This document shows, in pieces, positions 6,813-23,246 of a stretch of 64,000 nucleotides of DNA; positions within the stretch are counted from its first letter, which is position 1; every line of letters starts with the position of its first letter. The DNA comes from an uncultured Afifella sp. (GTDB lineage: Bacteria; Pseudomonadota; Alphaproteobacteria; Rhizobiales; Afifellaceae): positions 1 through 64,000 of the forward strand of contig CAMYKZ010000004.1 of the NCBI GenBank assembly GCA_947259045.1, given 5' to 3'. The translations under genes and the position numbers were made by a program. Under the pieces are notes generated by a model that saw only the letters and a list, made by a program, of their open reading frames with translations, did not search any database and was not told the DNA's origin.

Positions 6813-6976
6813 GCAACATTCAGACAAGGACCGACACTGTGCCGCATCTTGCAGGTAAGATCGGTCACAACGGGATCCTGGGAAACAAAGGTTCGGTTTT
6901 TCCCGGATAAACGGGCCGCAGGTCGTCACATCAAGCGGCTCGAAATGTAAGCAATGAAACAATGAGGGAGACTCAT

Positions 6977-8095
6977 ATGACCAACCTAGAATATCTGAAG
7001 CGGGGGGCCGCCGTTCTGGCGCTGGCCGCCAGCTTCGTGGCTGCACCGTTGCTGGCCCAGGCCAAGACGGTGATCCGTATCCAGTCGGTAATCCCGTCGA
7101 GCGCCGACGAAGTCACCATGCTGAACGATTTTGCCGACGACGTTCGGGAATTGACCGACGGCGAAGTATACTTCCAGGTTCTGCCTGCCGGCGCTGTTGT
7201 CGGCGTCGCCGAAACGCTTGATGCCGTCGACAAGGGCCTGATCGAGGCGGGCTTCGCCTGGACCCATTACTGGTCCGGCAAACATCCGGCCGCCATGCTG
7301 TTCGGTTCGCCGGTTGCCGGCGCCGGTGTCGGCATCGACAATATCGCCTTCGTCTCCTGGTTCATGTACGGCGGCGGCAAAGAGCTCTATGACGAGCTCT
7401 GGGACGAGATGGGCATGAATGTGAAGGGCTTCATGTTGCAGCCGGTTGGGCCGGAAGCGCTCGGCTGGTTCAAGGAGCCGATCGAGTCGATGGCGGATTT
7501 CCGAAAATACCGCTTCCGCACGCCTCCGGGCATACCCGGCCAGACCTACAAGGATATCGGCGTTGCATCGGTCTCCATGGGCGGCGGCGACATTCTGCCG
7601 GCGCTTGAAAAAGGCACCATCGACGCGGCCGAATGGTGCTGCCCGAAGCCGGATTCCGTATTCGGCTTCCAGAAGGTTCTGAAACATTATTATCTGCAGG
7701 GCCTGCACCAGGTGGTGGTCAATGCCGACATCTACATCAACAAGGATGTCTACAATTCATTGACACCACTGCAGCAGAAGGCGATCGAGGTTTCCGCCAA
7801 TGCATCGCTGATCAAGTCGCTGGCCTACCGGATCAATGAAAACGGCATCGCGCTGAAGGATCTGACGGAAAATCACGGCGTGATCCTGCACGACACACCG
7901 GCGGATTATTTCACCGAGTACATGAACGCCGCCAGGGCTTCGCTTGAAAAGAATGCGGCGGAAAACGCCTTCTTCAAGAAGGTCTGGGACAGCCAGAAGG
8001 CGTTTGCCGAAACGGCGGTTCCGTTCTGGGCCGGTGCGCAGACATCCAACGCGGCGCTCGGCCAGGCCTACGCCAAGCAGCTGAAGAAGCAATAA
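6977..8095 (+). CDS. TRAP transporter substrate-binding protein, DctP/TakP type
   Basis: A 372-residue periplasmic binding protein. A signal peptide is visible ([21 protein letters not shown], cleavage near residue 28). The DctP-fold body follows, with the family region [20 protein letters not shown] and [14 protein letters not shown], in which the conserved Arg that pairs with a carboxylate ligand sits near [11 protein letters not shown] 6977 is chosen over ATG 6962 because GGGAG lies just before it. It feeds the fused permease 25 bases downstream. Resemblance to the TakP group suggests a monocarboxylate or keto acid; that is inference. Confidence 0.9.
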
Positions 8096-8120
8096 CCTGA
8101 ACTGACATTGCAGGGGCGGC

Positions 8121-10433
8121 ATGAACGCCGCCCCTGCAGCAATTCAACGCGCAATGCGGGATGGGGCTGCGAGCCCGATCGGGGGAAACGTGACACTGGA
8201 AAATCTGGACCCTGCCGACGAACTGATTGCCGAGCGGCGCAGCGGCAGCCCCGGCGATCTGCCGCCGGATATGGCGAACTGGATGCGCGGCCCGATCACC
8301 ATCATCGATACGGTATCGCTCTGGTCCGGCCGGATTTTCTGCGTGCTGCTGATCCCGATGCTGTTTGCCATGGTCTACGAAGTGATTGCGCGCAAATTTT
8401 TTGTTGCGCCCACCCTTTGGGCCTATGACGTTTCCCGCATGGCCAATGGCGCGATGTTCATGTTCGGCGCCGCCTACGCCCTGATGCGCGGCGTTCATAT
8501 CCGTGCCGATTTTCTCTATCGCACCTGGAAGCCCGAAACCCAGGCCACCGTCGACGCACTGCTCTATCTGGCGTTCTATTTTCCGGCCATGCTGTTCTTT
8601 TTCTGGATCACGTTCGACTACACATACGATGCCTGGGTGAGGTGGGAACGGGCGGCGGATACGACCCTGATGGCGCCGCTGGCGCCAGCCCGTTCGGCCA
8701 TGCCGATCGGTGCTTTCCTGCTGATCCTGCAGGGCATTTCCGAACTTTTCAAATGTTTCCACGGCATGGGCGAACAGCGTGCGCGGACCTTTTTGCGCCT
8801 GGCGCCGGTCTATCTGATCCTGCTCGCCATGGTGTTCATGGGGGCGTTTTATCCCGATATCCTGCCGCTCGGAGACTGGTGGGCGTCAGCTGTTGCGCCG
8901 ACGGGGTTCGGCGATATCGCACCGGCGTGGATCGGCGTGATTATGATCGCAGTCATGCTGTTTGCGATTTTTATCGGTTTCCCGATCTCCTTCACGCTGA
9001 TCTTCCTGGCGTTCGTCTTCGGCGCCTGGGGTTTTGGCGGTCGGCTGGTGTTTTACCTGCAGGCATTCCAGTTCAACAATGTGATGCTGGAACAGACGCT
9101 CGCCGCCGTGCCGTTGTTCGTCTTTATGGGCATCCTGATGGAACAGGCCGGCCTGATGGAGCGGTTGTTCACATCGGTGCAGCTGATGCTGTCGCGCACC
9201 CGCGGTGCGCTCTATCTGGCAGTGCTGGTCGTTTCGACGATTTTTGCCGCCGCAACCGGTATTGTCGGTGCATCCGTTACCATCCTCGGCATCATGGCGG
9301 CAAAAACCATGAACCGGTCCGGTTACGACGTGCGCCTGGCCGCGGGAACGATCACCGCCGGCGGCACACTTGGCATCCTGATCCCGCCGTCGATCATGCT
9401 GGTCGTCATGGGCCCGGTGCTGGAAGTCCCGGTCACCGACCTGTTCTCGGCGGCGATCATCCCCGGCATCATGCTGGCCGTGCTTTACGCCGCCTATGCG
9501 CTGATCCGCTGCTGGCTGAACCCATCGCTCGGGCCGATCCTGTCGCCTGAGGACCAACCGGAGACATCGCCGTTCTATTGGCTTGAAGCAGTCCTCGTGA
9601 TGGCCTCGATCATCATCTTCTTCACAATCCTGGTGATGGCGCTGTTCGGCTCCCTGAATGGGCTGTTTCCGTTTGCCGGGCTGATCCTTTCGCTCGGCTG
9701 GATGGGCATCATGTTTGGTGGATCGCTCTGGGTTAAGAAGAACAAACCGGCCGGATTCTATTTTTCCGATCTCTGGTACGAATTTTTCATGGGGCTCGTG
9801 CCGCCGGCGACGCTTGTGTTTTTTGCGCTTGGCTCGATCCTGTTCGGCGTTGCGACACCCACCGAGGCGGCCGGCTGCGGCGCATTCGGCTCGATATTGC
9901 TGGCTCTGCTGTACCGCAAACTGACGCTTTCGGGCCTCTATGACGCGCTGATCAAGACGCTGGAAATTTCCGTCCTGATTCTTTTCCTGGTCGCTGCGTC
10001 GAATTTCTTCGGGGCGGTGTTCTCGCGGCTTGGAACGCCTATCGTGCTCACCGAGATGCTGCTGTCGTGGGATCTTTCCAAGACCATGGTGCTGATCATC
10101 ATCATGGCGCTGGTCTTCCTGCTTGGCTGGCCGCTTGAGTGGGTTCCGATCGTGCTGATCATCATTCCGATCCTGGTGCCCGTGCTTGTGGAATTCGACG
10201 TCAACCTGGTCTGGTTCGCCATTCTGGTGGCGGTCAACCTGCAAACCGCCTGGTTATCGCCACCGGTGGCGCTATCGGCCTATTTCCTCAAGGGCGTGGT
10301 GCCGGAATGGGATCTGAAGGATATCTATATCGGCATGATGCAGTTCATGGTAATCCAGCTGATCGGTCTGATATTGATCTTCAACTTCCCGCAGATCGCA
10401 CTCTGGCTGCCGGAGCATATTTACGGAAAATGA
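8121..10433 (+). CDS. TRAP transporter permease, fused DctQ-DctM
   Basis: A 770-residue inner-membrane protein joining the small (DctQ) and large (DctM) TRAP subunits. Residues 1 to 55 are a hydrophilic lead. Four membrane helices of the DctQ type end near residue 220 (FLLILQGISELFKCF). The DctM part then carries the family motifs AATGIVGASVTILGIMAAKTM and GTLGILIPPSIMLVVMGPV, with a second, inverted half containing GVATPTEAAGCGAFGS. There is no frame break between the halves, so it is a genuine fusion. The adjacent DctP supplies substrate and uptake is Na+-coupled. Confidence 0.93.
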   Translation: MNAAPAAIQRAMRDGAASPIGGNVTLENLDPADELIAERRSGSPGDLPPDMANWMRGPITIIDTVSLWSGRIFCVLLIPMLFAMVYEVIARKFFVAPTLWAYDVSRMANGAMFMFGAAYALMRGVHIRADFLYRTWKPETQATVDALLYLAFYFPAMLFFFWITFDYTYDAWVRWERAADTTLMAPLAPARSAMPIGAFLLILQGISELFKCFHGMGEQRARTFLRLAPVYLILLAMVFMGAFYPDILPLGDWWASAVAPTGFGDIAPAWIGVIMIAVMLFAIFIGFPISFTLIFLAFVFGAWGFGGRLVFYLQAFQFNNVMLEQTLAAVPLFVFMGILMEQAGLMERLFTSVQLMLSRTRGALYLAVLVVSTIFAAATGIVGASVTILGIMAAKTMNRSGYDVRLAAGTITAGGTLGILIPPSIMLVVMGPVLEVPVTDLFSAAIIPGIMLAVLYAAYALIRCWLNPSLGPILSPEDQPETSPFYWLEAVLVMASIIIFFTILVMALFGSLNGLFPFAGLILSLGWMGIMFGGSLWVKKNKPAGFYFSDLWYEFFMGLVPPATLVFFALGSILFGVATPTEAAGCGAFGSILLALLYRKLTLSGLYDALIKTLEISVLILFLVAASNFFGAVFSRLGTPIVLTEMLLSWDLSKTMVLIIIMALVFLLGWPLEWVPIVLIIIPILVPVLVEFDVNLVWFAILVAVNLQTAWLSPPVALSAYFLKGVVPEWDLKDIYIGMMQFMVIQLIGLILIFNFPQIALWLPEHIYGK

Positions 10434-10437
10434 TACG

Positions 10438-11187
10438 ATGAACGGTGATCTGTTTTCGCTTGCAGGGCAGACCGCTCTCATCACCGGCGGCGGTTCCGGC
10501 ATTGGCCGGGCAATCGCCGGCGGCCTAGCCAGAGCCGGCGCACGGGTGCTGTTGGCCGGACGCCGCGAAGACCGGCTGCGCGAGGCTCTCGGCGAACTCG
10601 ATGGCGACGTTTTTGCCGGCGATGTGGCGACGCAAGACGGCATTGCCGCCCTGGCCGAATGGGCGCTGTCGCAGAACAGTCCACCGGATATTCTGGTCAA
10701 TGCCGCCGGTATCAATCTGCGCCAGCCGGCCGACGAGCTGACGCCGGAGGGCTGGGACCAGACGCTGGACATCAACCTAAAAGCGCCGTTTTTTCTGGCC
10801 CAGGCGCTGGTGCCGGAGATGCGCGGCAGGGGCTGGGGCCGGATCATCAACATCGCCTCGCTGCAGAGCGCGCGGGCATTTGAGAACGGCCTCGCTTACG
10901 GCGCATCGAAGGGCGGCGTGGCGCAACTGACCCGGGCAATGGCGGAAGCCTGGTCGCGCTACGGCATCAATGCCAACGCCCTGGCGCCGGGTTTCTTCCC
11001 CACAGAACTCACCGGGGCGGTATTCGCCGACCGGAAGCGCGCAGACGCATTGGCCGCGCAGACGGCGATCGGCCGCAACGGCCAGCTTTCCGACCTTGTC
11101 GGCCCGGCGGTTTTCCTGGCCTCCGCTGCCAGCGATTATGTCACCGGGCAGGTGCTCTATGTCGACGGAGGTTTCACCGCCAAATGA
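10438..11187 (+). CDS. Short-chain dehydrogenase/reductase (gluconate/idonate pathway-like)
   Basis: A 249-residue NAD(P)-dependent SDR. The cofactor motif TGGGSGIGRAIAGG is at residues 13 to 26, NAAG follows, then the catalytic Ser (NIASLQSAR) and the YGASK pair near residue 155. The C-terminus VTGQVLYVDGGFTAK is typical of classical SDRs. It starts 4 bases after the TRAP permease and overlaps the next dehydrogenase by 4 bases. The pairing of an SDR with a zinc dehydrogenase resembles the IdnO/IdnD arrangement for L-idonate, so a sugar acid is a reasonable guess for the substrate. Confidence 0.88.
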   Translation: MNGDLFSLAGQTALITGGGSGIGRAIAGGLARAGARVLLAGRREDRLREALGELDGDVFAGDVATQDGIAALAEWALSQNSPPDILVNAAGINLRQPADELTPEGWDQTLDINLKAPFFLAQALVPEMRGRGWGRIINIASLQSARAFENGLAYGASKGGVAQLTRAMAEAWSRYGINANALAPGFFPTELTGAVFADRKRADALAAQTAIGRNGQLSDLVGPAVFLASAASDYVTGQVLYVDGGFTAK

Positions 11188-12173
11188 GGGCTTTGTTCTA
11201 TACCGGCACCCAGGCCATGGAGATGCGCGATACAGTTGCGCCGGAACCGGCGCAGGGCGAAATTGTCGTTGATCTGTCGCACTGCGGCATCTGCGGCTCC
11301 GACATGCATGCCTATCACGGCAAGGATCCGCGCCGGGTGCCGCCACTGATCCTTGGCCACGAAGCCGCCGGCGTTGCGCTGTCGGGCGATCATGCCGGAA
11401 AACGCATTGCTCTCAACCCGCTGATGTCGTGCGGAACCTGTTCGTTCTGCCGATCCGGCCGCGACAATCTTTGTGTGTCGCGCGAACTGATCGGCATGCG
11501 GCTGCCCGGCGCTTATGCCGAGCAGGTGGCGATTGCCGAACGCAACCTCTATCCGGTGGCCGACAGCCTGACGTCGGAAGATGCAGCACTTGCCGAGCCG
11601 CTGGCCTGCGCGGTTCACGCGGTCCGGCTGGGACAGAACCTGATCGGCCAGGCGATGACGGACAGCCGGGCCGTGGTGCTTGGCGGCGGGGCAATCGGCG
11701 TATTGAGCGCGCTGGTGCTTGCGCATCGGGGCGTTGCCGATCTTTGGATCGCCGAACCCAATGCCGGCCGCGCCGGGCTGTTGCAAAAATCGCTCAACGC
11801 AAACATCTATGATCCGCGCGCCGCCGGGCCGGAATCCGCATCCGCCGATCTGGTGATTGACGCGGTTGGCGCGGGTGCAACGCGAAAGGCCGCGTCTGCG
11901 CTGGCGAAACCCGGCGGCTGGATCGTCCATATCGGCCTGCAGGACGACGAACCCGGCCTCGATACCCGCCGCCTGACGCTGCAGGAAGTCGGCTTTATCG
12001 GCACCTATACCTATACGCGGAACGATTTCGCCGAGGCGCTGGTGCTGCTGCAAGGCGGCCTGATCGCCAGCCACGACTGGATCGAAATCCGCGATCTGGA
12101 GCACGGCGCGCAGGCCTTTGCCGATATCCACAACGGCACAGCGCCGCCGAAAATCATCCTGGCGACGGGTTAA
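11184..12173 (+). CDS. Zinc-dependent medium-chain alcohol dehydrogenase (L-idonate/sorbitol dehydrogenase-like)
   Basis: A 329-residue MDR enzyme. The catalytic zinc motif is HCGICGSDMHAYHG with GHEAAG following, and the structural zinc cysteines are in SCGTCSFCRSGRDNLC. The Rossmann motif appears as VLGGGAIGVLSALV. Such enzymes oxidise a secondary hydroxyl of polyols, sugar acids or threonine. ATG 11184 overlaps the SDR stop (ATGA), and this gene ends the + strand operon, which meets the opposing operon 15 bases further on. The substrate is inferred from context only. Confidence 0.88.
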   Translation: MRALFYTGTQAMEMRDTVAPEPAQGEIVVDLSHCGICGSDMHAYHGKDPRRVPPLILGHEAAGVALSGDHAGKRIALNPLMSCGTCSFCRSGRDNLCVSRELIGMRLPGAYAEQVAIAERNLYPVADSLTSEDAALAEPLACAVHAVRLGQNLIGQAMTDSRAVVLGGGAIGVLSALVLAHRGVADLWIAEPNAGRAGLLQKSLNANIYDPRAAGPESASADLVIDAVGAGATRKAASALAKPGGWIVHIGLQDDEPGLDTRRLTLQEVGFIGTYTYTRNDFAEALVLLQGGLIASHDWIEIRDLEHGAQAFADIHNGTAPPKIILATG

Positions 12174-12188
12174 GCACCCATTGAGCAA

Positions 12189-13193
12189 TCAGGCGCTCAG
12201 CGCTTTGATCTTTTCCAGCAATGACGCATCGACGCTGATCCCTTCGGCATCGGACCGGGCCCGCGCCGCATGCCGGCGGCTGCCGGGCAAACGCGCGTCC
12301 TTCTGATCGCCGATCGCCGCAACCAGCGCCTCTATCCGGCTGGCGAAGCCGCCGCCTGATGTCGCGCCCGGATCGATGGCGATGAAGAACTGGCCGGTTT
12401 TCGGCGGCCCGCCGGCAGTGCCGGAAAACGGGCTTGCGTCGATACCAAGCGTCGCGCCGGCAAGTGCGGCCGCCATCACCTCCGTCATCAGGCCGATGCC
12501 GACACCCTTGTAACCGCCGCTTGGCGCCATTGTGCCGGCCAGCGCCTCATCCGGACTGGTGGTCGGATTGCCGTCGGCATCGAGTGCCCAGCCAGGCGGC
12601 AGGTCACGGCCTTCGCGGGCATGTTTCATCACTTCCGATTTTGCCACGACACTGGCGCTCTGGTCGATCAGGATCGACGCGCCGCCTTTGCCGTCGGGTG
12701 TCGCCAGCGAAAACGGATTGGTGCCGATCACCGGGCGTTTGCCGCCGGCCGGCGCGATCGAGGCCGGTGCGTTGGTGAAACCGAGACCGACAAGACCGTC
12801 TGCGGCCAGCCTTTCCGTGTGATAGCCAAGGACGCCGCAATTGTAGGAATTGCGGATTGCAAGTGCGGCAATGCCGTATTCGCGGGCTGCTGGCACCAAC
12901 GCCTCAAACCCCAGATCGATGGCCGGATGGGCAAAGCCGGTCGCCGCGTCAACGCAGACCGTTGCCGGTCGCGGCCGCTCCATGCGCGGCTCGGCCCGGC
13001 CGTCGACCTTGGCGCAGCGCACATGTTCAGCATAGATCGGCACATAGAGCAGGCCGTGGCTGGCAATGCCATCGCGTTCGGCAGCCGCCACGGCGCGTGC
13101 CAGCGGCGCCGCGTTTTCCGGCGTTGTTCCGGCGGAAATGAGGGCGACTTCTGCAAGTTCAGCAATGTCTTCGACACGCATAAGGTCAGGCAT
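12189..13193 (-). CDS. Ldh-family (malate/L-lactate dehydrogenase-like) oxidoreductase with altered active-site motif
   Basis: A 334-residue protein of the Ldh/YlbC/AllD oxidoreductase family. The N-terminal DGIASHGLLYVP and the cofactor loop GTNPFSLATPDG are recognisable, as is the Gly-rich end SGGYKGVGIGLMTEV. Where family members have a catalytic His in an R-N-S-x-H-F-G or G-H-S-G context, this protein reads IRNSYNCGVLGYH, so the His appears replaced by Asn. It may be a divergent subfamily with another chemistry or a partner subunit. AAGGAA precedes ATG 13193, 14 bases after the DUF3726-like gene. It is last in a four-gene operon. Confidence 0.82.
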   Translation of the reverse strand: MPDLMRVEDIAELAEVALISAGTTPENAAPLARAVAAAERDGIASHGLLYVPIYAEHVRCAKVDGRAEPRMERPRPATVCVDAATGFAHPAIDLGFEALVPAAREYGIAALAIRNSYNCGVLGYHTERLAADGLVGLGFTNAPASIAPAGGKRPVIGTNPFSLATPDGKGGASILIDQSASVVAKSEVMKHAREGRDLPPGWALDADGNPTTSPDEALAGTMAPSGGYKGVGIGLMTEVMAAALAGATLGIDASPFSGTAGGPPKTGQFFIAIDPGATSGGGFASRIEALVAAIGDQKDARLPGSRRHAARARSDAEGISVDASLLEKIKALSA

Positions 13194-13207
13194 TCATTGT
13201 TCCTTCG

Positions 13208-13837
13208 TCAGTCATTGTCTCCGGTTCCGGCTCCGGCGCCTGAGCGCCGCGACGCTTCGCTCGCCGGCACATAGGTCTTGCTGGCAAAGCGGCCAAGCAC
13301 GCCGGTGACAGCCGGATCGATGGCGCGGCGTTTTGCGCAAACGGCATTCGGCCAGTGGCCGGCACCGGTGATGGTGACGACCGGGGCAAAGTCCGCCGTC
13401 AGATCGCCACCGGCATCAACGCCGGAGCGGCCGCAGACGATCTGTGTGCCGGACCAGCCGACGGCAAGCGGCTGGCCGAGGCGGCTGGCGGCACGGTCAA
13501 CGAACGGCACCAGCAGCAGTGGGCACCAGACCGGCTCAAGTGTGAGCAGATCCGGCAGGATGCCGGCATGATCGGATAAGGCGACACCGGTAATCAGCGG
13601 ACAGAGCGCCTCGCCTTCCGACCACCAGCGTGTGCTGCCTGGATGCGGCCGCAGCAGGTCATAATCCCGGCCGGCGATGTTCGGCAGATGAGCGGCGAGG
13701 ATTTCCGGCCCCGCAAGCCCGTGTTCCGACAGCCAGCGCACGGCCTTGCCGGCCTCCTCAGCCAGACCCCAGGTGAGCCCGGCGCCGCGCGCCGCCTTCA
13801 GGGACAGCGATTCGATCTCGCCGAATGACAGGGTCAC
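13208..13837 (-). CDS. DUF3726-like protein of unknown function
   Basis: A 209-residue cytoplasmic protein beginning TLSFGEIESLSLKAARGAG, the start I associate with DUF3726. No catalytic motif is recognised. GTG 13837 is chosen because it overlaps the stop of the preceding gene by 4 bases (GTGA), which fits the coupling seen elsewhere in this operon; longer in-frame starts would run far into that gene. The Ala-rich N-terminal half resembles a helical bundle and the C-terminal end is charged and probably disordered. Its place between an unknown 577-residue protein and an Ldh-family enzyme suggests a shared pathway. Confidence 0.75.
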   Translation of the reverse strand: MTLSFGEIESLSLKAARGAGLTWGLAEEAGKAVRWLSEHGLAGPEILAAHLPNIAGRDYDLLRPHPGSTRWWSEGEALCPLITGVALSDHAGILPDLLTLEPVWCPLLLVPFVDRAASRLGQPLAVGWSGTQIVCGRSGVDAGGDLTADFAPVVTITGAGHWPNAVCAKRRAIDPAVTGVLGRFASKTYVPASEASRRSGAGAGTGDND

Positions 13838-15567
13838 GGAATTGGTCCCTGCTGTTCTTCTGCCGCCATCAGCGGCGGCCAGACCCAATCGTCGGCATCG
13901 TGATTTGACAGTTCGTCGGGAAACGGCGCGCCGCGATACATGGAAATGCGGACCCAGCGGTCGGAGCGCGGATCAAATGCCGTGGCGCCGAAAAACGACA
14001 ATTTGCAGCGCAGCATGTCGATGGGAAGCGTATCGGCAGCAATCAGATTTTCGCGGATTTCGGCAAACGGGTAATTGGCGGCAATCTGGACCCGCCGCAC
14101 CGCGTGGCGGTGTTCGGGATGGGTCAGAAGGAATTCCGCCAGCATTTCCTGCGGCTGACGTGCTGCAAGCGCCCGGGCCAGTGCAGCGATATCCCGTCCG
14201 GTGGCCAAGGGCTGTTCCAGCTCCGCGCCCGGCTCGTCAAACCGCTCACCGAGGCGGGGTTCCAGCTTTTCTTCCGAGACATACCAGAACCGGGCCTGGC
14301 CGGCCGGCTCGTCATAATCGGTGTCAAGCGCCCAGGGATAATGTTGATCGATCAGCTCCGATGTCGTGCCGACGCTGATGCTGCCGTCAATTTCAAAAGC
14401 CGACTCTTCGTTGGCGTCCATGCAATCAGCCAATGCGTCGACGAGGTCGCCATGCGGTTCGATGATCAGCGAAACCAGCATCTCCTGGCCTTCCAGGCCA
14501 AGATTGGCCTCGCCCCAGCGGTAAAGCCGGTCCCACGGAAGTCCGTCAGCCAGACCGATATCTTCGACATGGGCCTCAAGCCTCTCAAGATCCGCCCGAA
14601 GCCCTGCGATCCGCGTGCTCTGCAGATCGTGGCCGGAGATCCAGAGCGCCGCCTGCAGTCTGGCCCGGCGGAGATAATCGCGGAAACCGGCTATCGCCTC
14701 CGGTCTGGCGTCCGATTGCGCGCGAACCCGCGCCAGCGCTTCTTCGCGCGCCAGCATCCAATTGTTGATCAAGGCCGGATGGGAAACCAGAAACGGCGCC
14801 ATGCCGAGGCCGGTGGAATTGCCGACACCGAAGCGGCGTCTGACGTCCGTATCCAGTCGCACCGCTGTGTCCGGCGCCCGCAGGCCGGCCATATGTTCAA
14901 CCAGATCGAGGGTAAAGGCCCGGATCAGCCATACGCTCAGCATTTCCGCCCGGAACGGCCCGGACAGTTCCGGCCTGTCGGCAATCAATTGACGGTCGGC
15001 GGCGCCGAACTTGCCGGAACCGTATACCGCAGTGGTGCGCATCAGGTAACCGCACATCTCCACCAGATCCGGATCGGGCTGGCGGCCGGCGGACAATCGC
15101 CCGATCACATGGTCAAACATCCTGACCGACCGGTTGGCCCGCGACAGGACAAGCTCGCGCTCCGACACCCGCCCGGCTTCCTGCAAGGGCACATTGGCTG
15201 CAAGCCGGGTGATATCGGCCTGATCCGGCTCACCGTCGAAAAGCGTGAATGTAGCATCCCAGGCTTCGGCGATCACCCGGTCGGAGCGAAAAGCGGGATC
15301 GAGATCATGACCGAAGGCGACCAGTGTATAGGTCCGCTGCGGGCCGATTGCGCGGTAGAGCGCCTTGCCCACGCCCTTGGCGTCGATATCCCACAAAGGC
15401 CGGTCGAACCGCCAGCCCTCATGTTTCAGCCGCCGGAGCAGGGCGCGCATGAAAGACAGGCGGGTCTGGTGAAAGACGCCCATCCGCGCCAACCGCATGA
15501 CCGTCTCCGGCGTGCGCCGGAATCTCGCGCTGTCGGGAACGGGGTTGGATTCGCCGCAATTGTTCAT
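13834..15567 (-). CDS. Conserved protein of unknown function, 577 residues
   Basis: A large soluble protein without signal peptide or membrane helices. Recognisable blocks are MGVFHQTRLSFMRALLRRL near residue 28, VYGSGKFGAADR near 200 and RRFGVGNSTGLGMAPFLVSH near 270, the last a Gly-rich loop that could bind a phosphate or cofactor. I recall similar proteins as 'hypothetical' in other alphaproteobacteria, but I know no function. ATG 15567 overlaps the M19-like gene stop by 4 bases (ATGA); the reading frame extends further upstream but there it would sit inside that gene. Translational coupling on both sides marks it as a core member of the operon. Confidence 0.85.
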   Translation of the reverse strand: MNNCGESNPVPDSARFRRTPETVMRLARMGVFHQTRLSFMRALLRRLKHEGWRFDRPLWDIDAKGVGKALYRAIGPQRTYTLVAFGHDLDPAFRSDRVIAEAWDATFTLFDGEPDQADITRLAANVPLQEAGRVSERELVLSRANRSVRMFDHVIGRLSAGRQPDPDLVEMCGYLMRTTAVYGSGKFGAADRQLIADRPELSGPFRAEMLSVWLIRAFTLDLVEHMAGLRAPDTAVRLDTDVRRRFGVGNSTGLGMAPFLVSHPALINNWMLAREEALARVRAQSDARPEAIAGFRDYLRRARLQAALWISGHDLQSTRIAGLRADLERLEAHVEDIGLADGLPWDRLYRWGEANLGLEGQEMLVSLIIEPHGDLVDALADCMDANEESAFEIDGSISVGTTSELIDQHYPWALDTDYDEPAGQARFWYVSEEKLEPRLGERFDEPGAELEQPLATGRDIAALARALAARQPQEMLAEFLLTHPEHRHAVRRVQIAANYPFAEIRENLIAADTLPIDMLRCKLSFFGATAFDPRSDRWVRISMYRGAPFPDELSNHDADDWVWPPLMAAEEQQGPIP

Positions 15568-16592
15568 GATCGGGAACCGGCGCCCTCCTCGCCAAAACTC
15601 TGATCGAAAAACCGCAGCCAGTTTCCGCCCATGATCTGATCCGTCTCGGCCTGCGAAAAGCCGGTCGCCAGCAAACCCTCGGCAATGCCGGCGAAATTGC
15701 GATTGTCGCGGAACCAGTCCGGTTGCGGCGGGAAGCCGGGATTGTCGGCAGAGCCTTCGCCGTAATCGACCTGTTTCGTCCAGCGCCCGGTGCGCATCCA
15801 CTCGACAATCGAGTCCGGCTGGTCCTGGCAAAGGTCGGAGCCGATGCCCAGCCGGTCGACGCCGATCATCTCGGCGGTGCGCGCCATGGCTTCGCAGAAG
15901 CTGGCCAATGTGCAGGCCGAACCGTCTTTCAGGTGATGCGGATAGAGCGAAAAACCCAGCATGCCGCCGCTTTGCCCGAGCGCTTTCAGCACGGTATCGG
16001 ATTTGTTGCGCAGCGCCGGGTGCCAGAAAGCCGGATTGGCATGGGTGATGGCGATCGGCCGGCTTGAAAGTTCAATCGCCTCGAGAGTGGAACGTTCGGC
16101 GGAATGGCTCATGTCGATCACCAGACCGACGCGGTTCATTTCGGCAATCACCGCCCGGCCCATCCGGGTAATGCCCGGATCTTCGGCCTCGTAACAGCCG
16201 GTCGCCAGCAGCGACTGATTATTGTAGCTGAGCTGCATGAACCGGGCGCCGAGCGCATGCATGATCTGGACAAGGCCGATATCGTCCTCGATCGGCGACG
16301 GATTCTGAAACCCGAACAGGATCGCGGTGCGGCCGTCCTTGCGGGCCTGACGGATATCGTCACCGGTGCGGGCATGAACGATCAGATCGGGGTGGCGCTC
16401 AAACCACAGGTTCCACTGTTCGATATTGGCGACGGTTTCGCGGAACGTCTCGTGGTAGGCGATGGTGACGTGGACCGCGTCCATGCCGCCCTCGCGCATC
16501 TGGCGGAATATGGTTTCCGACCAGGCCGCATATTGCAGGCCGTCGATTTGCAGCCGTCCGGGCCGGAATGCGGTTTTGTCCTGGTCTGTCAT
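15564..16592 (-). CDS. M19 membrane dipeptidase-like protein lacking the first metal-binding motif
   Basis: A 342-residue TIM-barrel amidohydrolase-like protein of the renal dipeptidase (M19) family. Later family motifs are present: VIDMSHSAERS, ITHANPAFWHP and RLGIGSDLCQD. The N-terminal HxD zinc motif, normally D-G-H-N-D, reads IDGLQYAAW, and the bridging-Glu region reads FGFQNPSPIED, so at least two metal ligands look lost. It therefore probably does not act as an ordinary dinuclear zinc dipeptidase. It is first in the four-gene operon and starts at ATG 16592. M19-like proteins also occur beside methylated-amine catabolism genes, so amide or amine chemistry is one option. Confidence 0.82.
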   Translation of the reverse strand: MTDQDKTAFRPGRLQIDGLQYAAWSETIFRQMREGGMDAVHVTIAYHETFRETVANIEQWNLWFERHPDLIVHARTGDDIRQARKDGRTAILFGFQNPSPIEDDIGLVQIMHALGARFMQLSYNNQSLLATGCYEAEDPGITRMGRAVIAEMNRVGLVIDMSHSAERSTLEAIELSSRPIAITHANPAFWHPALRNKSDTVLKALGQSGGMLGFSLYPHHLKDGSACTLASFCEAMARTAEMIGVDRLGIGSDLCQDQPDSIVEWMRTGRWTKQVDYGEGSADNPGFPPQPDWFRDNRNFAGIAEGLLATGFSQAETDQIMGGNWLRFFDQSFGEEGAGSRS

Positions 16593-18594: not shown

Positions 18595-19710
18595 TCAGGC
18601 GGATGGCGATTGCGGCGAGATATTCAGCGCTGCACCTGCGTCGACGATATTCTGCCAGACTTCGACCGGCACCGGCATGCCGTTTTCCGTCCGCTCGGCA
18701 AACCGGCGGCGCTCCGGGTCGCCTGGAACCAGAACCGCTTCATGGCCGTCGGCCGGCGGGCAGGCGCGGACAAAATCGACATAATCCTGCACCGCCTGCG
18801 CCGTGCCCGGTCCATTCTCCACGGGACTATTGAGGGCATCCGCCTTCATGTAGACCGACAACATACCGTTCCAGATACGGTCTTCCGGGCCGCCATTGCC
18901 TGACCCGGTCAGCGCCCCGGCAAGCAGTTCGCAGGCCAGCGCCAGGCCGGAGCCCTTATGCTCGCCCATGGCGACGAGCGCGCCGGACCCGCCGCGCGGA
19001 TTGGGAACCGTGCCCGGCGGAACCTCGCCGTAAAGCGCATGCGGATCGCGGGTCAGCGCGCCGTTGGCGTCCACCAGATCGTCACCGGGCATCGGCTTGC
19101 CGCTTTTCAACGCCATCAGCGCCTTGCCCTCCGCCACCCGTGAGGTGGCGAAATCGAGAATGAAATGCTGCCCGTCCAGACAGGGCACGCCGATGGTCAC
19201 CGGCGCCGTCGACATGCGCCGGCCGGCGCCGCCGAACGGCGCCACCAGCAGCGAATTGCGCACATTGACGAAATGGATGGAGACAAACCCGGCGTCGGCT
19301 GCAAGTTCCGCCCAGGCGCCGATGCGGCCGAGATGGCCGGCATGGCGCAAACCGACCAGCGCCACGCTCTGCTTTTCGGCCTTTTCAAGCCCGGCTTCGA
19401 CGGCCTCGCGGCCGAGCACCTGACCGAAACCATGCTGGCCATCGAGCAGCACGAAGGCGTCATTGTCGATCACCCGGCTGACATGGCGGTCGAAAAAGAC
19501 ATGGCCGCGCTCCGCCGCCTCCAGATAACGCGGCACGCGGACAATCCCGTGGCTGTCATGGCCGCGGGCGCTGGCGCCGACAAGGTTGCCGGCAATCGCC
19601 GATGCTTCCGCAAGATCTGCGCCGGCGGCCTGGAATATCCGCGTAATGAAGTCCTCCGCATGATCCGGCATGATCATCAGATTGTCCGAACCGGCCTGTT
19701 GCTGCGCCAT
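18595..19710 (-). CDS. Ldh-family (malate/L-lactate dehydrogenase type) NAD(P)-dependent oxidoreductase
   Basis: A 371-residue member of the Ldh/MDH2 family, which reduces 2-keto acids or cyclic imines with NAD(P)H. The DSHGIVRVPRYLE block and the probable catalytic His in LRHAGHLGRIG are present, unlike in the paralogue at 12189, and AMGEHKGSGLALACELLAG matches the C-terminal family motif. The start is ATG 19710 after GGGGGC; the frame continues far upstream without a gene-like start. It faces the Kazal-type gene across a 131-base divergent region. The substrate is unknown. Confidence 0.88.
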   Translation of the reverse strand: MAQQQAGSDNLMIMPDHAEDFITRIFQAAGADLAEASAIAGNLVGASARGHDSHGIVRVPRYLEAAERGHVFFDRHVSRVIDNDAFVLLDGQHGFGQVLGREAVEAGLEKAEKQSVALVGLRHAGHLGRIGAWAELAADAGFVSIHFVNVRNSLLVAPFGGAGRRMSTAPVTIGVPCLDGQHFILDFATSRVAEGKALMALKSGKPMPGDDLVDANGALTRDPHALYGEVPPGTVPNPRGGSGALVAMGEHKGSGLALACELLAGALTGSGNGGPEDRIWNGMLSVYMKADALNSPVENGPGTAQAVQDYVDFVRACPPADGHEAVLVPGDPERRRFAERTENGMPVPVEVWQNIVDAGAALNISPQSPSA

Positions 19711-19841
19711 GATGCCCCCGTTATTCCGTTCTGTACCGGCCCAGATTAACGTCTGCCGGCACCCAGACAATCGCAATTCGCGGTTCTGTTCGCAATAAGG
19801 ATCGATTTGATGACGACGGCGGACCGGTGTATCCGTTGTGT

Positions 19842-20171
19842 ATGAGAGCCCTGCTGCTGATTGCGATGATCGCATTTGCGCCGCCTGCCGTTGCAGTGGA
19901 AATTCTGCTTGACGGCGAGACCGTCGATCTTCCGGTCTGCGGCGGGATCGCCAACATACAGTGCAGCGGATCTGAATGGTGCGATTACCCGGCTGAGCAC
20001 GCCTGCGACGTGGCGGGTTATTTCGGCACCTGCCGGCCGCGGCCGGAGGCCTGCACGCAGATCTACCAGCCGGTCTGCGGCTGTGACGGCAAGACCTACG
20101 GCAATTCCTGCACGGCAAAATCGGCCGGCACCGACATCGCCCACGACGGCGCCTGCCAGTCGGGTGGATGA
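19842..20171 (+). CDS. Secreted Kazal-type serine protease inhibitor domain protein
   Basis: A 109-residue exported protein. The signal peptide is RALLLIAMIAFAPPAVA, with cleavage near residue 18. The mature part is Cys-rich: a first block (VCGGIANIQCSGSEWCDYP) and a Kazal domain recognisable by QPVCGCDGKTYGNSC and the following Cys spacing up to DGAC. Kazal domains inhibit serine proteases by loop insertion; in bacteria they may protect against host, predator or the cell's own proteases. ATG 19842 is chosen because it opens the signal peptide. An AT-rich terminator follows at once. Confidence 0.88.
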   Translation: MRALLLIAMIAFAPPAVAVEILLDGETVDLPVCGGIANIQCSGSEWCDYPAEHACDVAGYFGTCRPRPEACTQIYQPVCGCDGKTYGNSCTAKSAGTDIAHDGACQSGG

Positions 20172-20181
20172 ACTTGTTTCG

Positions 20182-20214
20182 ATAAAAATAATCGATTTTC
20201 GATCTTATTTTTAT
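20182..20214 (+). terminator. AT-rich terminator after the Kazal-type gene
   Basis: ATAAAAATAA at 20182-20191 is the exact inverse complement of TTATTTTTAT at 20205-20214, with an inner ATCGA/TCGAT pairing, and more T-rich sequence follows. The AT content of 20172-20250 is far above the local average, which makes the stretch stand out. Confidence 0.65.
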
Positions 20215-20346
20215 TTTTTTATCGATTTTCCCGCGAAATTCGGTATTTTTCCGGAACGCATATCCAACCTGAGCGGCGGATATGTCAGTCTGGTTCGGCA
20301 AGATCAGCTTAAGCTGGCGGAACCCATTCATCACCGGGAGGAAAAG

Positions 20347-21285
20347 ATGGCGAAATTTCAGAAACATGCGGCGGCTTTGGGTCTCACCCTGGGCCTGGCA
20401 ATCGGATCGGCAGGCTTGGCCGATGCGGAGGAACTGCGGATCGGAACGGCCAGCCAGGGCGGCGCTTTCTATCCGGTTGGCCAGGCGATCTCGACATTGG
20501 TCAATGATCATGCCGAGGGCCTGACGATGGTCCCGATCGTCACTGAGGGTTCGGTGCAGAATCCGCGTCTGGTGCACAGCGGCGAAGTGGATATCGCCAT
20601 CACCAACAACAATCTCGCCGTTCTCGCCAACAAGGGCGCGGCGATGTACAAAAAGAGCGGCAAGATGAACCTGACGGCCATCGGATCGCTGCATTTCAGC
20701 GTCCTGCACATGATGACGCTTGAGGATTCCGATATCAACACGATCGAGGATCTGAAGGGCAAGCGGATCGCGGTGGGACCAGCCGGCGGCGGCACGATAC
20801 CGTTTCTCAAGCAGGTTCTTGATCTGCACGGCATGACGATCGACGACATCACGCCGAGCTTTCTGTCCTATGGCGACGGTTTCAGCCAACTGGCCGACGG
20901 CAATGTCGATGCCGCTTTTGCGCTCAGCGGTTATCCGGCCGGCGCCGTCATGCAGGCCCGCGCCAACAAGCCGCTGAAGTTCATCAGTCTGTCGGACGAG
21001 ACGATGGAAAAGGCTTTGGAAAAATACCAGAACTACAATCGCGTCGTCGTGCCCAAGGACGTTTATGATACCGCAGACGACGGCGTCATTCTCGGCGTCA
21101 ACAACATGCTGATTGTCAATGCCGACGCCGATGCCGACAAGGTCTACAAGATCACTGCGGCGATCTACGATCATATGGACGAGTTCCGGGCGAGTAACGC
21201 GATTGCAAACCAGATCGATCCGGGACGGTCGCTCAGCCTGCGCATCCCGCTGCACCCGGGCGCTGCCCGCTATTTCAACAAATAG
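20347..21285 (+). CDS. TAXI family TRAP transporter solute receptor
   Basis: A 312-residue periplasmic binding protein of the TAXI (TRAP-associated extracytoplasmic immunogenic) family. The signal peptide ends in GSAGLADA; the mature protein starts EELRIGTASQGGAFYPVGQA, the hallmark of the family, and carries VHSGEVDIAITNNN and GKRIAVGPAGGGT. It starts at ATG 20347 behind GGGAGG. The fused TAXI permease follows 77 bases downstream, so the two form one uptake system for an organic anion or amino acid. Glutamate/glutamine-type ligands are known for some relatives; the ligand here is not determined. Confidence 0.93.
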   Translation: MAKFQKHAAALGLTLGLAIGSAGLADAEELRIGTASQGGAFYPVGQAISTLVNDHAEGLTMVPIVTEGSVQNPRLVHSGEVDIAITNNNLAVLANKGAAMYKKSGKMNLTAIGSLHFSVLHMMTLEDSDINTIEDLKGKRIAVGPAGGGTIPFLKQVLDLHGMTIDDITPSFLSYGDGFSQLADGNVDAAFALSGYPAGAVMQARANKPLKFISLSDETMEKALEKYQNYNRVVVPKDVYDTADDGVILGVNNMLIVNADADADKVYKITAAIYDHMDEFRASNAIANQIDPGRSLSLRIPLHPGAARYFNK

Positions 21286-21362
21286 CGTCCGGATCGGAAC
21301 ACCTGCGGCAAGGCCGGTTCACCGGGCCTTCTTGCCTGATCTGAAACGGGCCGGGGAGCTTG

Positions 21363-23246
21363 ATGGCTGAAAAATTCGACAACGGGCTGGACTGGACCGT
21401 CTCGATCCTGGCGTTCGGGATCGGCGCGTTCCATCTGCTCAACGTTTCGGGCATCATCGTTCTGTCGACGGCCGACATCCGCATTGTCCATCTCATGACG
21501 ATGCTGGCGATGCTGTTTCTGACCCGGCCGACCCTGAAACGGCTCGACGGCAATCTGCCGGACAGGCTGTTCAGCCTGGTGCTGGTCGCCGCTTCCGTTG
21601 CCAGCGGCATCTATCTGCTGAGCCGCTGGCAGGATATCGCCATGAGCGGCGGCGAGACCGAAGCGCTGGACGCCTGGGTCGGCATCGTCCTGCTGGCGCT
21701 GGTTCTGGAGGGCGCGCGGCGCGGCGTGGGCGCGGCACTGGCGATCATCTGTCTGGTCTTCTTCACCTACCCGTTTTACAGCGCCTGGCTGCCCGGCGTG
21801 CTGCAGGGCCGCGGTTACAGCCTGACGCGGATGTCTGAATTTCTGACGACCACATCACAGGGGGTCTACGGCATTCCGCTCGGCGTATCGTCGACTTACA
21901 TCATCCTGTTTGCCATATTCGGTGCTTTCCTGAGCGAGTTCGGCGCCGGCGATTTTTTCTTCCGCCTCGCCAGCCGGCTGACCCGCAACATGCGTGCCGC
22001 CGGCGCCAAGACCGCGGTGATCTTCAGCGCCCTGCTGGGCATGATTTCCGGATCGGCAGCCGGCAATGTCGCCGTCACCGGCACGCTGACGATCCCGATG
22101 ATGAAGCGCGAGGGTTATCAGAGCCACCAGGCCGGCGCGATCGAGGCGGTGGTCTCCACCGGCGGCCAGATCATGCCGCCGGTGATGGGGGCGGCCGCCT
22201 TCCTGATGGCCGAAATCGTCGGCACGCCGTATACGCAGATCATGCGCGCTGCGCTGGTGCCGGCATTATTGTTCTTTGCATCGCTGTTTTTCGTCGTCCA
22301 TCTGCAGGCGGCCAGGAGCGGCCTGAAACCGATGGCCAGGCCCGAAAACGACACGGAGCCGGTCTGGATGATCATCGCCAAAGGCGGGCAGTTCATCATC
22401 CCTTTCGTCACCCTGATCGCCATGATGCTGAACGGCTATTCGCCGTTCAAGGCGTCTTTCGTCGCGATCCTGGTTCTGCTCGCCGCCCACGTCATCTGGA
22501 CGCGGCAGATCGACCGGAACCTGTTCATCCGCTCCGCCCGCGCCATTGCCAACGGATCGAAAAGCGTCATCCCGATCGCAATTGCCTGTGCCGCGGCGGG
22601 CATCATCGCCGGGACGCTCGGCATCACCGGGCTGGGTTCGAAAATATCCGGTCTGATCATTTCCGCCTCCGGCGGCATCGCCATCATCGCCCTGCTCCTG
22701 ACGATGGCGACGGCGATCATTCTCGGCATGGGCTTGCCGACAACCGCCGCCTATCTGATCCTGGCGACCGTGGTCGCCCCGGCTCTGTCGAAGCTCGGCG
22801 TGCCGATGCTGACGGCGCATATGTTCGTGTTTTTCTTCGGCTGCGTGTCGACCATCACGCCGCCCGTCGCGCTGGCCTCCTATGTCGCCGCCGGCATTGC
22901 CGGCGCCGACATCAACAAGGTCGGCTGGACGGCGTTTTTCTACGGCATTACGTCGTTCATCCTGCCTTACATGTTTTTCTTCGGCCCGGCGCTGATGCTC
23001 GATGGTACATTTCCGGAGATCGGCCTGGCGGCGGCCAGCGGCTTGCTGGGCACCTTCTGCATCGCGACCTTCGTCGTCGGTTATCTGAAAACTGCGTTAC
23101 CGATGGGGCAACGGATTGTGCTCGCCATTGCCGGCCTTGCTCTTCTGCATCAGGGTATTGCAACTGATGCGGCGGGTCTGGGACTGCTCGCACTGATCCT
23201 TTTTATCGGCCGCATCGGCGTCAAAACCGCCAACCGGGAGAACTGA
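21363..23246 (+). CDS. TRAP transporter fused permease, TAXI type (4TM/12TM)
   Basis: A 627-residue membrane protein with many hydrophobic helices. The DctM-like core motif GMISGSAAGNVAVTGTLTIPM and STGGQIMPPVMGAAAFLMAE are present, and the second half carries GMGLPTTAAYLILATVVAPA and STITPPVALASYVAAGIAG. The N-terminal four helices replace a separate DctQ subunit, as usual for TAXI-type systems. ATG 21363 is taken as start; a TTG precedes it directly. It works with the receptor at 20347, and the cupin gene follows after one base. Confidence 0.92.
   Translation: MAEKFDNGLDWTVSILAFGIGAFHLLNVSGIIVLSTADIRIVHLMTMLAMLFLTRPTLKRLDGNLPDRLFSLVLVAASVASGIYLLSRWQDIAMSGGETEALDAWVGIVLLALVLEGARRGVGAALAIICLVFFTYPFYSAWLPGVLQGRGYSLTRMSEFLTTTSQGVYGIPLGVSSTYIILFAIFGAFLSEFGAGDFFFRLASRLTRNMRAAGAKTAVIFSALLGMISGSAAGNVAVTGTLTIPMMKREGYQSHQAGAIEAVVSTGGQIMPPVMGAAAFLMAEIVGTPYTQIMRAALVPALLFFASLFFVVHLQAARSGLKPMARPENDTEPVWMIIAKGGQFIIPFVTLIAMMLNGYSPFKASFVAILVLLAAHVIWTRQIDRNLFIRSARAIANGSKSVIPIAIACAAAGIIAGTLGITGLGSKISGLIISASGGIAIIALLLTMATAIILGMGLPTTAAYLILATVVAPALSKLGVPMLTAHMFVFFFGCVSTITPPVALASYVAAGIAGADINKVGWTAFFYGITSFILPYMFFFGPALMLDGTFPEIGLAAASGLLGTFCIATFVVGYLKTALPMGQRIVLAIAGLALLHQGIATDAAGLGLLALILFIGRIGVKTANREN

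Follow-up and report, generated by a model that had tools for sequence, protein, structure and literature searches.

A window of 64,000 nucleotides from an uncultured Afifella sp. (assembly GCA_947259045.1, contig CAMYKZ010000004.1, positions 1 to 64,000) carries four closely packed genes, one encoding an orphan 577-residue protein (hereafter U577) and another a protein of the family DUF3726, and the question raised by this locus is what such a set of genes could do. In the light of the comparative analysis described below, it is fairly probable that they form the catabolic core of an operon whose substrate is homarine (N-methylpyridinium-2-carboxylate), or a closely similar N-methylated N-heterocycle with a 2-carboxy group, and whose product is N-methylglutamate. 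The genes are as follows:

15564..16592, minus strand: M19 'membrane dipeptidase' of the amidohydrolase superfamily, 342 aa, with an altered metal site (Pfam PF01244)
13834..15567, minus strand: U577, orphan protein of 577 aa, no family match
13208..13837, minus strand: DUF3726 protein, 209 aa, GTG start (PF12525)
12189..13193, minus strand: Ldh, an Ldh_2 NAD(P)-dependent reductase/dehydrogenase, 334 aa (PF02615)

M19 overlaps U577 by 4 bp (ATGA) and U577 overlaps DUF3726 by 4 bp (GTGA), while the spacing between DUF3726 and Ldh is 14 bp. The Pfam bit scores are 248 for M19 (cut-off 26), 67 for DUF3726 and 319 for Ldh_2. The overlapping gene set described in an earlier, sequence-only reading of this DNA is borne out by these junctions and families. 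Its claim of 'obligate co-translation' goes beyond the data; translational coupling is likely.

Homologues of U577 were found in 53 of the 385 alphaproteobacterial genomes surveyed, as well as in beta- and gammaproteobacteria and in 168 plasmid records. The same gene order recurs across alpha-, beta- and gammaproteobacteria, which argues that the arrangement is not due to chance. Two types can be distinguished, an A-type with U577 41-66% identical to the window protein and a B-type with about 30% identity. In the A-type, for which 64 loci were compared, the order is (LysR, divergent)-ALDH-M19-(BCCT)-U577-DUF3726-Ldh, where ALDH denotes an aldehyde dehydrogenase. DUF3726 lies directly downstream of U577 on the same strand in all 64 loci, as it does in the window, and beside it in 6 of the 7 B-type loci; all 43 genomes of the survey that bear PF12525 are also U577-positive. 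M19 adjoins U577 in about 60 of the 64 A-type loci, ALDH is found in about half of them and Ldh in 25. The constant unit is therefore M19-U577-DUF3726, in which U577 and DUF3726 are an obligate pair. Of 62 relatives, at least 23 retain the 4-bp overlap of this pair, and the two genes are fused into a single open reading frame in two lineages, an A-type one (Mesorhizobium sp. 131-2-1) and a B-type one (L073). A conserved functional unit with the orphan and the DUF protein as constant partners, as anticipated in the sequence-only reading, is thus confirmed, although of the four genes proposed there as one set only three are constant, Ldh and ALDH being variable additions.

Phaeobacter inhibens DSM 17395 carries two copies of the module on a 262-kb plasmid (L040, NC_018291, and L123), one adjoining dimethylsulfoniopropionate demethylation genes and without Ldh, the other near a tetramer resembling N-methylglutamate dehydrogenase (see below). 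In a family of small genomes (f86; L068, positions 9961-10281, and L060), U577 contains an insertion of tandem repeats with units of 36/39 bp, or a stop codon divides the gene, and further repeats occur in the neighbouring genes. A scan of viral contigs revealed no relatives.

The nature of the DUF3726 partner was elucidated from its AlphaFold2 model (pLDDT 81), whose weak Foldseek matches are mostly Ldh_2 enzymes. On realignment, 15 Ldh_2 entries gave Z values of 8.5-10.4 over 150-182 residues with root-mean-square deviations of 3.3-4.0, as compared to 2.9 for the next unrelated entry. Comparison of DUF3726 profiles with the operon's own Ldh by hhalign gave 4.7e-4 for the A-type and 1.3e-3 for the B-type, figures reported as E but representing P values of single comparisons, and both alignments have a common start. 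The A- and B-type profiles match each other at E 1.5e-10, and two B-type members weakly match PF02615 (E 0.011). The conserved catalytic His of the SHG motif was not found in the alignments of either type. Relative to the dehydrogenase, the chain is shortened by about half (about 150 residues, leaving about 170 of about 340), the cofactor domain is not full-length, and the middle part is dispensable, as evident from the versions of 140-148 aa in L008 and L055. The conserved parts are the N-terminal helical region and a C-terminal tail, (S/T)xxSRxxGAGAGxxDND. Profiles and the model together characterise DUF3726 as an Ldh_2 homologue that has shrunk and lost its catalytic centre, and that is predicted to keep the Ldh_2 fold over most of its chain.

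U577 itself matches no family in the databases searched. Searches of Pfam, NCBIfam and PDB sequences with the single sequence and with a 48-sequence profile gave scattered chance matches only; its AlphaFold2 model is of low confidence (pLDDT 65) and has no Foldseek match at E <= 1e-3, the best structural matches not being meaningful. Among the 48 aligned homologues, 28 residues are invariant, of which 8 are Arg and none is Cys or His. The U577 tree places the window protein within a supported group of 28 rows, and ALDH-bearing operons account for 20 of these (in this labelling L063 is scored as ALDH-bearing, its ALDH being just 29% identical). A separate clade of ALDH-less operons was rejected, with at least seven changes under the starred branches and the window placed among the ALDH-bearing operons.

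The two recognizable enzymes of the operon have modified active sites. The closest solved relative of the M19 protein is 2i5g (E 9e-62), an M19 amidohydrolase of the same subgroup with DGL replacing DGH; the Pfam match of the operon protein begins at position 32 of the PF01244 profile. The canonical DGHxD is DGLQY in the operon protein, which removes both HxD ligands of the beta-metal, and the bridging Glu is replaced by Gln96 in A- and B-types alike (column conservation taken over 66 loci). His163, His184 and Asp253 are retained. The window protein thus belongs to M19 by Pfam and lacks the full dinuclear site of HxD, bridging Glu and two His, and it would likely hold at most one metal. The closest solved relative of Ldh is delta1-piperideine-2-carboxylate reductase (DpkA, 1wtj, E 1e-59). 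The catalytic SHG motif is common to both, with His46 retained in the operon protein, whereas the substrate-binding Arg of SHGxxRxP is replaced by Tyr50 throughout the alignment of the operon subfamily and the adjacent HHF by YNC. Since these changes are found family-wide, they represent a family trait rather than decay, in agreement with the changed active sites noted in the sequence-only reading. A second Ldh_2 gene in the window (18595-19680, minus strand), of the malate/lactate/ureidoglycolate (YbiC/HcxB-like) type with the canonical Arg, is unrelated to the operon's Ldh (24% identical).

The M19 family name, together with a suggestion in the sequence-only reading, would agree with a locus for the synthesis or breakdown of a small molecule, peptide-like or bearing an amide, by means of a true dipeptidase and an imine reductase. 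This appears very improbable, as the HxD ligands and bridging Glu are lost across the family and the partners in most loci are betaine transporters and an N-methylglutamate dehydrogenase (Mgd), not peptide transporters. The more general proposal of C-N (amide or imine) chemistry does fit the module.

The genes that surround the core in its relatives point to an N-methylated substrate. LysR, ALDH and either BCCT or glycine-betaine-type ABC transporters occur in the same order in Phaeobacter, Ruegeria TM1040, Sulfitobacter, Tritonibacter, Mesorhizobium, Aminobacter and Roseateles. In P. inhibens 2.10, the operon proteins are WP_044041060 (ALDH), WP_014889342 (M19), WP_014889341 (U577), WP_014889340 (DUF3726) and WP_044041059 (Ldh). 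Such transporters would suit a zwitterion such as homarine. The highest scores of the operon ALDH are to the 2,5-dioxovalerate and ketoglutaric-semialdehyde dehydrogenases, both of which act on five-carbon semialdehydes. MttB-like methyltransferases, GbcA-like Rieske proteins and dimethylglycine-dehydrogenase-like flavoproteins are encoded near several relatives. These last genes, the closeness of Ldh to delta1-piperideine-2-carboxylate reductase, and the fact that no classical ring-cleaving oxygenase is encoded in the operon would also be compatible with the degradation of another N-methylated betaine, e.g. a pipecolate- or proline-type betaine, ending at N-methylglutamate or methylamine, with Ldh as a cyclic-imine reductase like DpkA. 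This is considered rather unlikely: a reductase missing from about 60% of the relatives is not central, the constant orphan pair suggests unusual chemistry that a saturated ring would not need, and the reported link between homarine and Mgd is the simpler fit.

Mgd is stated to take part in homarine catabolism (PMC13390433). In Ruegeria TM1040, Phaeobacter 2.10 and Roseateles XES5, the operon adjoins a four-subunit 'sarcosine oxidase' and a GlxA/AraC-type (TmaR-like) regulator; TmaR is an AraC-type activator located beside mgd (PMC13390433). The large subunit of the Ruegeria and Phaeobacter tetramers is 65-67% identical to the copy on contig C37 of the window genome and 43-45% to that on C64. 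Downstream of the C37 copy lie genes with the three glutamate synthase domains in the mgsABC layout and by a glutamine-synthetase-like gmaS (Mgs and GmaS being named from domain layout and general knowledge), which identifies it as Mgd. The Ruegeria and Phaeobacter tetramers are therefore taken to be Mgd as well, and for Rhodobacterales an identity of the adjacent tetramer as sarcosine oxidase was rejected. The C37 contig (L112, L115) bears a full mgd-mgs-gmaS cluster with a TmaR-like regulator and an XRE-cupin regulator between mgd and mgs; it supplies the window genome with the Mgd expected to accompany a complete homarine-type operon. Of the 53 U577-positive genomes, 45 encode a member of the SoxA/MgdC family, as compared to 90 of 332 U577-negative ones (Fisher p 9e-16, uncorrected for phylogeny).

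The same tetramers invite a different reading, in which the operon serves as an accessory to the catabolism of glycine betaine, dimethylglycine and sarcosine and the tetramer is a true sarcosine oxidase, as PGAP names it and as the GbcA-like and dimethylglycine-dehydrogenase-like genes nearby in Phaeobacter 2.10 would allow. We regard this as quite improbable, given that the tetramer is closer to the mgs-linked Mgd than to the other copy, a possible sarcosine oxidase, and that known glycine betaine catabolism has no need of an ALDH-M19-Ldh set.

In the favoured route to N-methylglutamate, uptake of the betaine would be the first step. The first attack on the pyridinium ring is assigned to U577 by elimination, because ALDH, M19 and Ldh cover the other steps; U577 would act with DUF3726 as a subunit, a dehydrogenase fold stripped of its catalytic centre. 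In some organisms the ring or an iminium may be reduced by Ldh before this attack; the exchange of the carboxylate-binding Arg for Tyr would be in keeping with a substrate that is cationic and N-methylated. The five-carbon semialdehyde produced would be oxidised by ALDH, the remaining C-N bond, of formyl or enamide type, would be hydrolysed by the M19 protein, and N-methylglutamate would be demethylated by Mgd, encoded elsewhere in the genome, to glutamate and a C1 unit. One carbon must leave, since homarine has 7 carbons and N-methylglutamate 6. The balance, homarine + 4 H2O = N-methylglutamate + formate + 2 [H], indicates that O2 is not strictly required for the conversion, and it may still be used.

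A comparable route is known for trigonelline, where the Tgn enzymes open an N-methylpyridinium carboxylate ring, and ALDH and hydrolase steps follow as in the route proposed here; that pathway uses a two-component flavin monooxygenase, whereas none is encoded in the U577 operon. The homarine operon described in 2026 is reportedly named homABCDER, and its layout, said to comprise five catabolic genes and a regulator, resembles the LysR, ALDH, M19, U577, DUF3726 and Ldh of complete relatives; the window would hold four of these six genes, and no transporter. A conserved homarine pathway was described in a 2026 Nature Microbiology paper (doi 10.1038/s41564-026-02313-7), as cited in PMC13390433; like the module, it is reportedly conserved in marine bacteria, and it involves Mgd. 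The N-methylglutamate pathway of Ruegeria pomeroyi (gmaS-mgsABC-mgdABCD, with TmaR) shares its Mgd, and a regulator of like AraC/GlxA type, with several complete operons that have these genes as neighbours and with the window genome, but starts from methylamine (PMC13390433), whereas the U577 operon would supply N-methylglutamate from another substrate. The view that the pathway is not yet described therefore probably no longer holds at the level of the pathway, whereas the literature read does not explain the individual enzyme steps, above all that of the U577-DUF3726 pair. New here are the assignment of DUF3726 to the Ldh_2 fold, its obligate pairing with U577 and the fusion of the two in two lineages, the changes in the active sites of M19 and Ldh, and the B-type module; the literature searched contained no mention of DUF3726 and no earlier text on any of these points.

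Several observations weigh against homarine as the substrate. The gene-by-gene correspondence of homA-E to the module is putative, the Mgd-like copies beside SAR11-like loci are just 41-46% identical to the mgs-linked protein, and the statistic on the co-occurrence of SoxA/MgdC with U577 is uncorrected for phylogeny. In the window, neither LysR nor a 2,5-dioxovalerate-type ALDH nor a transporter is attached to the cluster, so that this copy is a core and not a complete operon. The best ALDH of the genome shares just 54% identity with its counterpart in the Phaeobacter operon and lies alone on contig C88, and the only BCCT of the genome is 33% identical. As regards its origin, U577 is present in 0 of 10 genomes of the same family and in 4 of 30 of the order, and this patchy distribution suggests that the window operon was probably acquired horizontally.

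The B-type module, hosted by Sinorhizobium, Variovorax and Alloyangia, has the order IclR-U577-DUF3726-like-M19-transporter, the transporter being in several cases a PotABCD-type ABC system accompanied by GabT and SSADH. Among the loci L098, L070, L101, L102 and L073, IclR is present in most, the PotABCD-type transporter is missing from L101, and L098 contains GabT, SSADH and RidA. It probably represents the same core acting on another substrate, and its products may be gamma-aminobutyrate (GABA)-like. A bolder proposal, which we hold only tentatively, is that U577-DUF3726 is a new pyridinium or N-heteroaromatic ring-opening enzyme, in which the orphan is the catalytic subunit and its partner has a dehydrogenase fold that has lost its own catalytic centre, and that the B-type module with its M19 acts on another N-heterocycle to yield GABA-type products.

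Other genes of the window lie on either side of the cluster. An operon for a TRAP transporter (DctP and a fused DctQM), an SDR and a zinc alcohol dehydrogenase (6962-12173, plus strand) converges on it, its last gene ending 15 bp ahead of the Ldh stop codon; it was set aside as a partner of the module, being convergent and absent from other U577 loci. On the other side, a small secreted cysteine-rich protein with a Kazal-like serine-protease-inhibitor motif, VCGCDGKTYGNSC (19827-20171, plus strand), and a TAXI-type TRAP transporter with a substrate-binding protein and a fused permease (20200-23246, plus strand) were recognized by eye.

Homarine is a methylated pyridine from marine algae and animals. 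If the proposed role is true, two 'hypothetical' families of many alphaproteobacteria, including those with small oceanic-type genomes, would gain a role in the turnover of an abundant marine nitrogen compound, and DUF3726 would exemplify a dehydrogenase fold that has been reduced until it serves an orphan enzyme as a partner without catalytic function. The B-type module would then offer a ready test of whether the U577-DUF3726 pair is a general ring-opening device.

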